A stretch of DNA of 64,000 bases from Sedimentisphaerales bacterium (GTDB lineage Bacteria > Planctomycetota > Phycisphaerae > Sedimentisphaerales > SM23-30), in NCBI GenBank assembly GCA_028281535.1, contig JANQJS010000025.1, forward strand, positions 124,001 through 188,000, written 5' to 3'. Below the pieces are notes generated by a model, which saw only the letters and a list, made by a program, of their open reading frames with translations, searched no databases and was not told where the DNA came from. The position numbers were made by a program, and so were the translations under genes. Shown here in pieces: positions 4,339 to 12,554 of this stretch. The first letter of the stretch is position 1. The number at the start of each line of letters is the position of its first letter.

Positions 4339-4974
4339 CTAAACTTTTCGTCTTAATTTGGCATATCCCAGAACTAAACTAGTTAAAAGTAATGCACTTG
4401 GTTCGGGGGTGTGTGTTGTCTCAAATCTAAAATCATCCATTTGGAAAAAACCGTTATTTGACAAATTAGAAACAGATAGTGTATTAAACCCATCACTATT
4501 TTCTATGCCAGCAAACACAGAGGGTAAATTTCCTCCTGGTAGAATGTCTTCTGTTGTAAATAATTGTTGTTCTACCAGGTCTGTGTTATCGAATAATTCC
4601 AACAAAATTAATTGTCCAGATGAACTTGTTCCGGAAATGCGAAATCCAATTCTATGTTGTGGCGTTGCAAATTCAGCGATGACCGGATTGGTAGTAACAC
4701 CGTTATATGGATTGTAATTCATCACTTCTTGTGTGTTGCCAAGCTTGGAGGCCGTAAATACATCTTGAAAAAGGCCACCTTGAAACGACACACCTTGAGC
4801 GGCATACTGATTAATGACTTCTTCGGCGAGAGAAAGATTTTCAAAGTCAATGTGTGTTTCTGAGCCCGAAAACTGATCTTCTAAGATAATTACTGCATGC
4901 AAGCTATCGCTCAAAGTAAAAAAACAAAGTAGAACGATAAATGGTTTGGTTAATTTAATATAAGCTGCAGACAT
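4339..4974 (-). CDS. PEP-CTERM sorted exported protein
   Basis: Exported protein of 211 residues with an N-terminal signal peptide (about 1-27, hydrophobic FIVLLCFFTL) and a C-terminal PEP-CTERM tail: TPEPSALLLTSLVLG, then basic KLRRKV. The tail directs export, processing by an exosortase and surface or EPS attachment in organisms with that system. The body (HIDFENLSLAEE..YAAQGVSF..FRISG) resembles PEP-CTERM proteins with a jelly-roll-like domain; no enzyme motif is seen. The frame is open to 5043, but ATG 4974 is preceded by AGGAG at good spacing and begins the signal peptide, so I use it. No exosortase is in the window. Confidence 0.85.
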   Translation of the reverse strand: MSAAYIKLTKPFIVLLCFFTLSDSLHAVIILEDQFSGSETHIDFENLSLAEEVINQYAAQGVSFQGGLFQDVFTASKLGNTQEVMNYNPYNGVTTNPVIAEFATPQHRIGFRISGTSSSGQLILLELFDNTDLVEQQLFTTEDILPGGNLPSVFAGIENSDGFNTLSVSNLSNNGFFQMDDFRFETTHTPEPSALLLTSLVLGYAKLRRKV

Positions 4975-5229
4975 ACTCTCTACTCCTAAGTAAAAGTACT
5001 TTTTTGGGTATATTTTACGTTCCCGGTGGCATGTTTCGACCAATCATTATGTCGGTAAATCCGTAGAGAAAATTAATAAAAAAAGAAAAGATTCTTCTTT
5101 ATCCTGCTTTTTGAGGCTGGTATGAGGATTTTGTTAAAGTGGTTTAGGGGAAAACCCGAAATTTCTTTTAGTAACTGACTAAATAATGTTACGACACCTA
5201 TGAATTGACAACGTGCCTTGGAGTGCGAT

Positions 5230-5496
5230 TTGAGTTACTACCAAAAACAGAGCCCGCTAACGAAATTCTGCTTTGTGATTTTAATCATCATTTGCAGTTT
5301 AGTCGATGTGGCCGTAGGGCAATTTGACCCCGCCTTTGACCCGGCGTTCGATCCCGCCTTCGATCCGGCGTTTGACCCGGCCTTTGATCCAGCTTTCGAT
5401 CCAGTGCCAGAACCTGCATCTTTATCATTGCTTGCTGCCGGAGCCTACATGATATCGCGACGACGCAAAACATATGACCGTGTGCACAGTCAGTAA
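5230..5496 (+). CDS. Miniature PEP-CTERM protein made of FDPA repeats
   Basis: A signal peptide (hydrophobic FCFVILIIICSLV, cleavage probably after DVAVG), then six exact FDPA tetrapeptides and one FDPV, then directly the sorting tail PEPASLSLLAAGAYMISRRRK. There is no room for a folded domain: the mature part before PEP is only about 30 residues. No ATG exists in the frame; TTG 5230 sits six bases after GGAG (5220-5223), so I prefer it to TTG 5218. The 12-base units differ mostly at synonymous third positions, which argues that the peptide is translated and under selection. Function unknown; a spacer, cell-surface filament or exosortase substrate are possibilities. Confidence 0.75.
   Translation: MSYYQKQSPLTKFCFVILIIICSLVDVAVGQFDPAFDPAFDPAFDPAFDPAFDPAFDPVPEPASLSLLAAGAYMISRRRKTYDRVHSQ
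5323..5406 (+). repeat. Seven 12-base tandem units coding FDPA/FDPV
   Basis: Seven consecutive codon quartets: TTT GAC CCC GCC, then variants with TTC/TTT, GAT/GAC, CCC/CCG/CCA and GCC/GCG/GCT. The first six all encode FDPA; the seventh ends in GTG (Val) and leads into the PEP motif. Confidence 0.95.
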
Positions 5497-7199: not shown

Positions 7200-7511
7200 G
7201 AGTTCTCCAAAATGATTAATACTTAATATATAGCGTTTAATTTTTTGCCAAATAAGCAAAAGGGGCATTATAGGATATTGTGCAAAGTTCAGCAATTGTA
7301 ATTCATAACTCGTATAGTTACAAATAGATACGATGTGATCGTGCTTTAATTGGTTTTTGTATAAAAAACTTCTAAAGCACAAAACTACAATGAGTTATGT
7401 TTGATCGGATTTTTGCGGTTACTTGCTAAAATGTTAGGATTCTGTTATAATAGCTCCTTATCCAAAAAAGTGTGGGGATTTATACATACTTCAATTTGGG
7501 AGAAAGACCGA
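7200..7511. other. Divergent spacer between ilvD and the LEPR giant gene
   Basis: About 310 bases. It holds the ilvD ribosome site at its left end and a strong sigma70-like promoter for the rightward gene (listed separately). I see no leader peptide rich in branched-chain amino acids and no convincing attenuator for ilvD. Confidence 0.6.
7423..7451 (+). promoter_or_regulatory. Sigma70-like promoter of the LEPR giant gene
   Basis: TTGCTA (7423-7428), a 17-base spacer and a perfect TATAAT (7446-7451). It lies inside the longest possible reading frame (from 7401), which supports the later start at ATG 7512. Confidence 0.65.
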
Positions 7512-10500
7512 ATGCCTTTGAATGAGAAAAACATCCAGATGAACACTGCGAAAAAAGGTAAAAAAAACCAACTAAAACTCGAGCCATTAGAAACACGTGT
7601 TTTGCTTTCCGCAACGGATCTCACTCAGTGTTTGCGCATAACAGAACTCATGTATAATCCTGCTCCTGATCCAGTTGATGCCAGTCGTGATTTGGAGTTT
7701 ATCGAATTTCAAAATGTGGGTAGTGAATCGATTGACCTGCAAGGTGTTAATTTTACCAATGGAATTAATTTTACGTTTACCAGTTTTACCTTGAATGCGG
7801 GTGATTTTGTTGTTGTTGCCGAAGACGTGAATGATTTTCAAGCAGTCTACGGAAATTCAATCAACTTATTTCCTCAACCTTATACCGGCTCTTTGTCCAA
7901 TGGCGGCGAACGCATAAAAATGGTGGATGCTGGCGGTGTTGAGATTCTTGATTTTACTTATGACGATAAATGGTATGGCAGTACCGACAACGGTGGTAAC
8001 TCATTAACCTATGATGGTGATCTCCCCGGTGTTAAAAGTGATTGGGAGAAAAAATCAAATTGGGCACCCAGCAGTGTCATAGGTGGTACTCCCGGCCAAG
8101 CGGATACCGGATTAAAACAGGGCGATATCGAATTTAATGAAATACTAGCTCATTCCAATATCGGTGATGATTTTATCGAACTGATTAATACGACCTCGAC
8201 AGATATAAATATTGGTGGATGGTTTTTATCAGATGATCCATTAGAGTTAACAAAATATGAGATTCCAGCAAACACGATTTTACCTGGAAATAATGGTCTG
8301 TTGGTGTTTGAGCAATCAAATTTTGGGTTTGGTATTAGCGAGCATGGAGATGATGTCATATTAACCTCAGGTGCAGATGGAGCAACGACAGATTTGTTCA
8401 GTGAATCTATCTTTATGCCAGCATCTGATCAGGATATTTCATGGGGGCGATATTTTAAAGCCAGTACAGGCACTTATAATTTTACGCCACTGCAGTCGCC
8501 GCCAACAAAAGGGTTGGCCAATAACGGTCCCTTAGTTGGGCCGATTGTTATTTCTGAAATTATGTATCATCCTGGTCTGGAAGATCAATCGCAGGAATAC
8601 ATTGTGATTACCAATACGACGAATCAGGTCGTTAATTTATTCGAAACGGTCAGTAAAGAAGTTTCCGAAGGTAACTCTCAAGATATTGATGTTGGATGGC
8701 GATTTACCAGCGGGATTGATTTTCAATTTGCGACAAATCAAACCATTGCTGCTAATGGTTCTATTATTTTATCACGCATGGCAGAAAATGATCTGCGAAA
8801 TGAATTTGATGTGCCTTTAGCCTACGACTATTTGCAAATCCCCTTGGATCCTGTTGATGAAGATGGTGTTCTCATTGTCAATCCAGACACCAGTTTCGGC
8901 AACAGCAGTGAAAAGATAGAATTATCCAAGCCGGGAAATGATCGACCTTTCGGCCAGCCGCAAGCCTATATTCGACAAGATCGCATCAGTTACAGTGATG
9001 GCAATAATGATAGTGATTTTCCAAATACGTCAAATGGTAAAGATCCCTGGCCTCGTCAAGCGGATGGTAAAGGTGCTTCATTAGTGCGAATCGTCGATAC
9101 CGATTATGGTAATGATCCAGTCAATTGGCAAGCGAGTAGTCCATTTGAATCGAGTAACGTTGTTCCTGACAATGTCAAATTAACCTTTGCACCTGGCGAT
9201 AGACCTACGCAGGGCGATGTTGTAACCTTTAATGTTACTGCTACTGACGCCGATGGCACCATTGCAGATGTGCAATTTTATCTCGTGGATGAAAATAACA
9301 ACGATTCCCTTTTAGGAAGTGGGACATTTGCCAATAATGTTTGGAGCCTTCAAGTCGATACAACTTCCTTTCCAGGTGGTCAAAATTCCATCTGGGCACT
9401 TGCGATTGATGATGATGGTGCAAAAGGGCTGGATAATGAATCTTTGCGAGTCAATGCGTCGCCGGTTATTTCAAATATTACTGTTGATCCAGCTTTGGTG
9501 TTGGCCGGAGAGTCATTTTCGATCACATCAACCATTACAGATGAAGATGATGTTGCCTCTGTCAATTTATTTAGAGACACAAATGGTAATGGGCAAGTAG
9601 ATGACGGCATTGATCAGGCGTTAGGGGCAGCAACATTATCTCAAAATGATCTATGGAGTTGGTCTGGATCAACGAGTGGATTTGTCGTTGGAGAAAATAC
9701 AATTTTAATCCAAGCGTTCGATGATAATGACAATGATAGTAAAGATGTGACATTAAGTTCTACAGCATCGGCAACTGTGGATGTTTTTGTTCCAAATCAA
9801 TTACCGACGATTAGTTCCTTACAAGCACTGCCAGATCCTGTTTTGTTTGGTGAAAATGTTACAATCACTGCGTCAGGCGTAAGTGATTCTGATGGTCAGG
9901 TCGTCGAAGTACAATTCTACCGAGATGCCAATAACAATAATAGCTTAGATGTTGGTATTGATAGTTTACTTGGTAGCGATACGGATGGCAATGATGGTTG
10001 GGAACTCACCATTGCGTCTGATAGTTTTTCGGGTGGTTTAAATCGTATTCTTGCAATTGCTTTAGATAATGATTCTGGACAAAGTGCTGAAGTGACCACG
10101 ACGGTGGATGTTAATCAGTTGCCAGTTATCAATGACTTGACCATTCAGCCTACAATTGTTGAATTAGGCCAAGATATTACGCTCACAGCGGGTAGTGTAT
10201 CTGATTCTGATGGCGAAGTTATACGAGTTAATTTTTATCTTGATGAAAATAATAATGATAGTTTGGATGAAGGTGTTGATACACTTCTTGGTTTCGATAC
10301 AGATGGAACGGATGGTTGGGCAATTCTTCAGTCGACCAGTACATTCAATTTGGGTAACAATACCTTTTTGGCACAGGCGATTGATGATGAAAGTTTTGTT
10401 AGTCAAGTTGTTGGTCAGGACTTGAATTTACTAATACCCAATGTGCCACCCACTATAAATTCTCTGTTAGGTCAACCCAATCCTATTACTGTGGATGAAA

Positions 10501-12554
10501 TTCTAACATTAACAGCAAATAATGTCATCGATAGTGATGGTACCGTTTCACAAGTTGAGTTTTATTTGGATGATGGTGACAACCTATTTAATAGTCAGTT
10601 GGATACTTTGTTGGATTCAGATAATACAGGACCTGACTACAGTTGGTCTGGTTCGACCAGTGCGTTTCCAATAGGGCTGAATCGAATTTTTGTTCGAGCA
10701 CAAGATGAGGATGCTGCCTGGAGCGATATCGTAGAAACGACCGTTGAAGTTTTACCCAATATGGCACCAACGGTCGATAGCTTGACAGCCTCTCCAGATC
10801 CAGTGATTCAATCCGTTGATATGTTATTGTTAACAGCAAATAACGTGACTGATGCTGATGGAACAGTAGTAAATAGTGAATTTTATCTCGATGATGGCGA
10901 TCAGCTTTTCGATCCTAATGTGGATGAGTTGCTGGGAAGTGATTCTGATGAATCGCAAGGTTGGTCGCTTGAAATTTCTACAAATAATATTGATACTGGG
11001 CAGTTACTGCTTTTCTCACGTGTTCAAGATGATGATGGTGTTTGGAGCAATGCGGTAAGTACGACCGTTCTGGTTGAACCTCCAAATCAACTGCCTGTTA
11101 TTGATGAATTAATCAATACGCCACGTTTTCTTTCGCCAGGTGGTTTCTTAAGATTGACGGCAAATGATGTTGTTGATACTGATGGCACCATTGCATTCGT
11201 TGAATTTTATGTCGATTCCAATAAAAATGGTTTACTTGATGAAAGTTCAGATCAACTCATCTCAACAGATACAGACGGAAGTGATGGTTGGGATTGGATC
11301 GGACAAACCACTGGCTTTCCTGGGGGAACCGTTTCCTTTTTTGCCAGAGCACAAGACGATGAAGGGGCCTGGAGCGAAACCGTTGCTGCCCAGGGAACTT
11401 TTCAGATAGCAAGCGTCACTTTAGGGGGTGACAGTGGTTTTAAATCACTCAAATACTCAGATCAAGATGGTTCAGACGTGAGTGTCAAAGTTGGTAATGG
11501 CGAAATTGATTTTGTCTTTGATGGCGAGAATGTCAAAACGATTTCAAAAGGCAGTACCGTAACAGTCATTGGATCTGTTACCTCTGTCGCAGCTGATATT
11601 AAAAACGCAACGGAAAAAACTTCGATCTCTATGAGTGCCAAGGGGGGCGATGGCTTGGTTGAACTGGATGGGATTACCGGAGTAGCTTTAGGCAAACTGA
11701 GTGGTAAAGGTCTCATTTTAACGAATAATATTCAATTGGATGGAAGCTTAGGCTCTGTGGCTTTACAAAAAATTAACCCAAATGTCATTATTACGACTGG
11801 GGCAGGAGCTGCCAAAGGATTTAGTTTGAAAGCGAATGAAATCTCTGATGGTGTTAACTTTGATTTAGTAGGAGCCGTTAAAAGCTTTCAAGCCGCACAG
11901 TTTGGAGATGGGGTATTAAGTGCTGATAGCGTTGGCCAGGTGAAAATTACCTCAGCTAATGATTTTTCTGGGGATATTGTAGCAAAAACAGGCGGGATTC
12001 AAGGCGTCAATGCTACCGGAAACATTACGGGTAAATTGATTGCTGAAACATCCATTAGTAAAATTGCGACCAAAGCAGATTTTAAAGGTACAGCCAGAGC
12101 TGGTTCGCAAATAGTATCTTTACAAGCCTTGAACTTGGATCAAGCAATATTAAGTGCAGGCGAAAAGATCGGGAAGGTTAGCTTAAAACAGGACATGCTT
12201 GATTCTTATATCTTTGCCGGATTCGATTTGGGGTCTGATGGGGCTTTGGGTAACACTCAGGCTGGAGGGGCGGATAGTGGCGGCAGTGGGAACGTGGATT
12301 CGCTCGCTGTCAAAGGATCGTTTGCGAGAAGTTATGTTGCTGCAGGGACGCTTCCCTTGTCGCCGCTGACTCAGGATTACCAATTTGACTATCCAGCCAG
12401 TAACGGCACGATTGCCAAAGTGAAGTTTGGCGCGGTTGATTTTCAGGCCAACGACAATTTTGGTTTGTATGCCGCTACGGCCATACAATCTGCCAAAATT
12501 GGCAAAAATAATGCCCAATCTAATGGCCAATTTGAGTTGGAAATCATTACTTAG
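7512..12554 (+). CDS. LEPR-XLL giant surface protein: lamin-tail, Ig-like repeats, beta-helix
   Basis: Predicted 1,680-residue exported or surface protein. Residues ~21-34 carry the planctomycete N-terminal sorting motif LKLEPLETRVLLSA after a basic stretch. Three lamin-tail-like domains follow (about 38-200, 203-345, 345-545; ITELMYNP, IEFNEIL, ISEIMYHP starts). Seven Ig-like repeats of ~100 residues (about 553-1297) share DSDG.V..V.FY.D and a calcium-loop-like DENNNDSLDEGVD. The last ~380 residues are glycine/valine-rich repeats typical of planctomycete beta-helices. No catalytic motif, dockerin or PEP tail is seen. ATG 7512 is preceded by GGGAGAAAG and a promoter. Lamin-tail domains are often found beside extracellular nucleases or phosphatases, but no such domain is fused here; an adhesive or structural role is my inference. 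Confidence 0.85.
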   Translation: MPLNEKNIQMNTAKKGKKNQLKLEPLETRVLLSATDLTQCLRITELMYNPAPDPVDASRDLEFIEFQNVGSESIDLQGVNFTNGINFTFTSFTLNAGDFVVVAEDVNDFQAVYGNSINLFPQPYTGSLSNGGERIKMVDAGGVEILDFTYDDKWYGSTDNGGNSLTYDGDLPGVKSDWEKKSNWAPSSVIGGTPGQADTGLKQGDIEFNEILAHSNIGDDFIELINTTSTDINIGGWFLSDDPLELTKYEIPANTILPGNNGLLVFEQSNFGFGISEHGDDVILTSGADGATTDLFSESIFMPASDQDISWGRYFKASTGTYNFTPLQSPPTKGLANNGPLVGPIVISEIMYHPGLEDQSQEYIVITNTTNQVVNLFETVSKEVSEGNSQDIDVGWRFTSGIDFQFATNQTIAANGSIILSRMAENDLRNEFDVPLAYDYLQIPLDPVDEDGVLIVNPDTSFGNSSEKIELSKPGNDRPFGQPQAYIRQDRISYSDGNNDSDFPNTSNGKDPWPRQADGKGASLVRIVDTDYGNDPVNWQASSPFESSNVVPDNVKLTFAPGDRPTQGDVVTFNVTATDADGTIADVQFYLVDENNNDSLLGSGTFANNVWSLQVDTTSFPGGQNSIWALAIDDDGAKGLDNESLRVNASPVISNITVDPALVLAGESFSITSTITDEDDVASVNLFRDTNGNGQVDDGIDQALGAATLSQNDLWSWSGSTSGFVVGENTILIQAFDDNDNDSKDVTLSSTASATVDVFVPNQLPTISSLQALPDPVLFGENVTITASGVSDSDGQVVEVQFYRDANNNNSLDVGIDSLLGSDTDGNDGWELTIASDSFSGGLNRILAIALDNDSGQSAEVTTTVDVNQLPVINDLTIQPTIVELGQDITLTAGSVSDSDGEVIRVNFYLDENNNDSLDEGVDTLLGFDTDGTDGWAILQSTSTFNLGNNTFLAQAIDDESFVSQVVGQDLNLLIPNVPPTINSLLGQPNPITVDEILTLTANNVIDSDGTVSQVEFYLDDGDNLFNSQLDTLLDSDNTGPDYSWSGSTSAFPIGLNRIFVRAQDEDAAWSDIVETTVEVLPNMAPTVDSLTASPDPVIQSVDMLLLTANNVTDADGTVVNSEFYLDDGDQLFDPNVDELLGSDSDESQGWSLEISTNNIDTGQLLLFSRVQDDDGVWSNAVSTTVLVEPPNQLPVIDELINTPRFLSPGGFLRLTANDVVDTDGTIAFVEFYVDSNKNGLLDESSDQLISTDTDGSDGWDWIGQTTGFPGGTVSFFARAQDDEGAWSETVAAQGTFQIASVTLGGDSGFKSLKYSDQDGSDVSVKVGNGEIDFVFDGENVKTISKGSTVTVIGSVTSVAADIKNATEKTSISMSAKGGDGLVELDGITGVALGKLSGKGLILTNNIQLDGSLGSVALQKINPNVIITTGAGAAKGFSLKANEISDGVNFDLVGAVKSFQAAQFGDGVLSADSVGQVKITSANDFSGDIVAKTGGIQGVNATGNITGKLIAETSISKIATKADFKGTARAGSQIVSLQALNLDQAILSAGEKIGKVSLKQDMLDSYIFAGFDLGSDGALGNTQAGGADSGGSGNVDSLAVKGSFARSYVAAGTLPLSPLTQDYQFDYPASNGTIAKVKFGAVDFQANDNFGLYAATAIQSAKIGKNNAQSNGQFELEIIT

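Follow-up and report, generated by a model that had tools for sequence, protein, structure and literature searches.

The forward-strand gene at 5230–5496 of the window (the whole 64,000-nucleotide stretch of Sedimentisphaerales bacterium DNA analysed here) is probably genuine and selected, and its product is probably an exosortase client whose exposed part is a short disordered peptide. This reading of the FDPA gene is based on the match of its tail to the family TIGR02595, on the presence of three exosortases and 61 PEP-CTERM matches in the same genome, and on variation among its repeat units that is exclusively silent. A repeat score above that of Markov controls, a ribosome-binding site, an open frame and an unstructured middle between two predicted helices point in the same direction, as do the existence of other intact miniatures in this genome and its relatives and the occurrence of DPVPEPAS ahead of the tail in three other loci (L019, L025 and L027). 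The reading is weakened by the absence of a homologue from the sequences searched, a Pfam PF07589 score just short of the threshold, the odd codons of the array and the low pTM (0.29) of a single-sequence structural model.

The FDPA gene and its parts

The initial annotation described a signal peptide, six FDPA units and one FDPV, followed immediately by PEP and a sorting tail. Sequence and coordinates were both right, and the tail scored above the TIGR02595 cut-off. The features are as follows.

4339–5043, reverse strand: PEP-CTERM neighbour, divergent from the FDPA gene (TIGR02595, 20.0 bits, cut-off 16)
5220–5223, forward strand: GGAG, likely ribosome-binding site, 6 nt ahead of the TTG (read in the sequence)
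5230–5496, forward strand: 88-residue miniature PEP-CTERM gene with TTG start, stop included (ORF listing, TIGR02595)
5230–5319, forward strand: putative signal peptide of 30 residues, ending in AVG and followed by Q (by eye)
5323–5406, forward strand: six FDPA units and one FDPV unit, 12 nt each (Tandem Repeats Finder, codon comparison)
5404–5469, forward strand: PEP-CTERM sorting signal, consisting of VPEPAS, a hydrophobic helix and RRRK (TIGR02595, residues 59–80)

The gene runs from the TTG at 5230 to a stop at 5494–5496. The automatic ORF listing places the start at a TTG further upstream, at 5218, but the position of the GGAG favours 5230. The encoded protein has a basic and hydrophobic N-terminus, AVG, Q, (FDPA)6, FDPV, PEPASLSLLAAGAYMISRRRK and eight more residues, with PEP directly after the repeat units. 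Its tail matched TIGR02595 with 22.4 bits (this is the genome-wide match G000:C9:129404-129469, G000 being the genome under study) and PF07589 with 20.0 bits, against a gathering score of 20.7. AlphaFold2 run on the single sequence (mean pLDDT 64.3) placed helices at residues 9–31 and 63–87 and modelled the FDPA units as a coil of low confidence without secondary structure. No Rfam match was found in the window, and a PDB sequence search with the FDPA protein returned one match, which was meaningless.

The repeat array and evidence of selection

The FDPA array obtained a Tandem Repeats Finder score of 99; among 60 versions of the window generated by a second-order Markov model, the top score was 63. 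Units 1–6 differ at third codon positions only and all these differences are silent, while unit 7 carries a single replacement, A to V. At least six independent changes are needed among units 1–6, and the chance of all six being silent is approximately 2.4e-4, assuming that a quarter of random changes are silent. A far smaller probability could be calculated from the 14 differences between neighbouring units; that figure is unsafe because units 1–2 and 3–4 resemble a duplicated dimer. The annotated claim that only synonymous change had occurred among the first six units, and that the peptide is probably selected, was thus borne out, selection at the peptide level being suggested by the silent-only variation. 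In one antisense frame (KAGS) nearly all residues are kept as well (one extra state versus none), but this frame is not used by any of the antisense ORFs listed at a minimum length of 50 aa.

The array has a G+C content of 61%, compared with 41%, and its codons are unlike those of the 28 long ORFs of the window. CCG accounts for 3 of its 7 proline codons, against a usual 13% in the window. Codons and G+C content are such that the array could be of recent or foreign origin.

Two other explanations of the array must be weighed here. An open frame that crosses the repeat by chance and is no gene would agree with the TTG start and the lack of a homologue, but it would have to account for the sorting-signal match, the ribosome-binding site and the third-position pattern in combination, and we regard it as very improbable. 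The array might also be a relic without present function, derived from a larger PEP-CTERM gene by loss of the domain and growth of the FDPVPEP stretch through slippage. The deviating codons, the missing homologue and the finding of DPVPEPAS ahead of the tail elsewhere would suit such an origin, whereas the silent-only variation of the FDPA units and the intact start, ribosome-binding site and tail would not; a relic is therefore considered unlikely, though it is the strongest of the competing explanations.

Exosortases and PEP-CTERM proteins of the genome

Three PF09721 matches above the Pfam cut-off identify exosortases in the genome, and 61 PEP-CTERM matches exceeded the NCBIfam TIGR02595 cut-off. 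The median length of the PEP-CTERM proteins is 242 aa, as measured with starts picked by rule and with C45:224460 shortened by the end of the stretch taken. The FDPA protein, annotated as an exported and unusually small protein, is indeed the second smallest intact member. Only four of the 61 are shorter than 150 aa, comprising three intact proteins of 49, 88 and 101 aa (frames of 49, 95 and 120) and a 30-aa fragment. The fragment (G000:C27:24106-24168, L077) has its PEP-CTERM tail in a frame that lacks a start region and is perhaps a broken gene.

The 49-aa gene (G000:C20:165482-165553; L078, L174) encodes little beyond a signal peptide followed by a tail of the PAP type. Its presence is what favours the notion that the FDPA protein keeps the exosortase occupied, as a dummy or competitor substrate; this notion leaves the silent-only variation of the FDPA units unexplained and appears improbable.

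Between residue 31 and PEP, the stretch that would be exposed, the FDPA protein contains neither Ser nor Thr nor Asn. In the 59 measurable PEP-CTERM proteins of the genome, the FDPA protein included, these three residues together make up 24% on average, and the next lowest value is 13.6%. The repeat had been proposed as a possible glycan acceptor, and this suggestion was not supported for Ser, Thr, Tyr or Asn: the stretch QFDPA...FDPVPEP contains none of them, which makes sugar attachment through these residues unlikely. The other two roles put forward in the initial annotation, spacer and dummy substrate, look alike at the level of sequence.

The window also harbours, at 7401–12554 on the forward strand, a gene for a 1717-residue protein with repeated domains and, near its N-terminus, LEPLETRVLLSA, which we take to be a planctomycete-type motif. 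The protein gave no NCBIfam match at E 0.1.

Relatives and other miniatures

Neither a protein search nor a DNA pattern search of 58 relatives detected a homologue of the FDPA protein. None was found either in genome_contigs, plasmids and viral contigs, from which records of the same or a very near genome may be absent. The FDPA protein as query gave matches in all 59 genomes and, besides the gene itself, the matches listed covered mostly the tail region. Seventeen genome_contigs loci were considered as homologues and rejected, as in none of them do an FDPA array and a PEP-CTERM tail occur together. The three loci with DPVPEPAS are unrelated, of planctomycete type and found among the genome_contigs; in L021 from the same set the frame is shortened by a stop, and the remaining FDPA-like runs belong to unrelated proteins or frames.

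Short PEP-CTERM frames were inspected in 20 stretches chosen among the matches listed, of which relatives contributed 16 and this genome 4. At least three intact miniatures with a signal-like start were found in the relatives (the first PEP frame of L067, L072 and L073), with lengths of approximately 71 aa (G014), approximately 75 aa (G017) and 105–110 aa (G015), whereas the other short frames inspected in relatives were cut by contig ends or were frame fragments. Three closed relative genomes contained 198 TIGR02595 matches above the cut-off, a single one of which lay in a frame below 150 aa. The middles of the other very short PEP-CTERM genes are unrelated to the FDPA repeat. The initial annotation suggested looking in related genomes for short PEP-CTERM genes with different repeat numbers; miniatures occur, with unrelated middles, but neither an FDPA homologue nor other repeat numbers were found. 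In one relative (G028:C60, L006, 325–1351) a PEP-CTERM tail lies in a short frame that overlaps the end of a 272-aa ORF in a different frame, possibly a frameshift or an assembly error.

A GAGAGA hairpin ahead of PEP-CTERM genes

GAGAGA was found in 30 of the 61 PEP-CTERM upstream regions (up to 250 nt), against a Markov expectation of 4.7 and a maximum of 11 in 200 runs. A pattern of AGAGAGA, 12–42 bases and TTTTTT returned 41 rows, equal to 23 genomic sites by hand count. Of these, 14 precede a PEP-CTERM start by no more than about 210 nt (one of the genes concerned scores below the family cut-off), two overlap PEP-CTERM coding sequence and one is located about 240 nt upstream. Close inspection took in 19 of the 23 sites, and three of the other four were covered by the scan of upstream regions. 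Long hairpins ending in a T tail are formed by most of the 14 upstream sites; two sites are weak. Examples in this genome, all outside the window, are L114, L122, L131 and L140 (near position 1500), and the 49-aa gene also has a GAGAGA hairpin upstream. The FDPA gene stands apart from this group: the window contains no GAGAGAG, no GAGAGA is present within 250 nt upstream of the gene, and the covariance model R1 gave no nearby match.

A MAFFT alignment of 15 elements was poor, and five were dropped, leaving ten in the covariance model. Among the loci returned from relatives 15 were inspected, and in six (L179, L182, L184, L188, L205, L206) a GAGAGA-type arm precedes a gene with a signal-like start, with the PEP-CTERM tail in view at L179, L184 and L206. 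L192 has the arm without such a gene and L207 has no hairpin. The other seven were rejected as leader elements, being plain terminators or lacking the motif. The relatives in which GAGAGA hairpins were seen ahead of surface-protein genes are G001, G005, G007 and G009. The bare GAGAGA pattern was not enriched across all relatives, and in most genomes its counts differed little from those of the reversed control.

The arrangement suggests a terminator in the 5′ leader of PEP-CTERM genes, a candidate for attenuation judged from sequence; the plain alternative is that the hairpin is the ordinary terminator of the upstream gene. A hairpin ahead of many PEP-CTERM genes may give a handle on how this gene family is switched. 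Haft 2006 (PMC1569441) mentions an upstream motif that is reported solely in proteobacterial genomes. Our literature searches found no work joining PEP-CTERM with a leader and terminator, or with Sedimentisphaera.

Proposed role of the FDPA protein

For the FDPA protein, once expressed, we infer cleavage of the signal peptide, processing by exosortase, a location and a role as follows. The N-terminal signal would export the protein, the PEP-CTERM tail would then hold it in the membrane, and one of the genome's exosortases would cut it near PEP; a stretch of some 30 residues, QFDPA...FDPVPEP, would remain on the outer side of the inner membrane. This exposed stretch would be a disordered acidic-aromatic repeat, most likely serving as a short matrix or surface tether and not as a folded domain. 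That F and D recur every four positions might suit weak sticking or metal contact, which is a guess. With a mature part of just about 30 residues, the cut could alternatively free the repeat as a small secreted signal or matrix component without anchoring; the ORFs listed at the locus revealed no gene for a receptor, for export or for processing, and we hold a freed peptide to be rather improbable.

Beyond the single gene, we tentatively propose that exosortases have dedicated miniature clients which expose solely a short selected repeat, as a peptide brush or sticker in the matrix. Were this true, the sorting system would display bare peptides besides folded proteins. To our knowledge the role of exosortase clients is mostly unknown, and a client that is nearly all repeat would offer a simple test of what the sorting system needs and of the effect that a bare peptide has at the surface.

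Comparison with known systems

A literature word search for FDPA gave no peptide repeat among the matches listed (titles and the abstracts shown). Among named PEP-CTERM families, the flocculation protein PepA (NF033554) was matched weakly by the FDPA tail, with 18.2 bits and far below the cut-off of 80, and matches to the other named families were likewise weak and far below cut-off. PEP-CTERM proteins are enriched in glycosylation-associated residues according to PMC12188702, an enrichment that is usual and not defining, whereas the exposed part of the FDPA protein is devoid of Ser, Thr and Asn. In the relative G038 (L080, L081) a proline-rich low-complexity run similarly stands directly ahead of PEP, although its unit differs and contig ends truncate both frames. 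With the PEP-CTERM/exosortase clients (TIGR02595, PF07589), as characterised in Haft 2006 (PMC1569441), the FDPA protein shares a putative export signal, the PEP motif, the hydrophobic helix, the basic end and the exosortases of the genome, but it differs from them in having no room for a folded domain.
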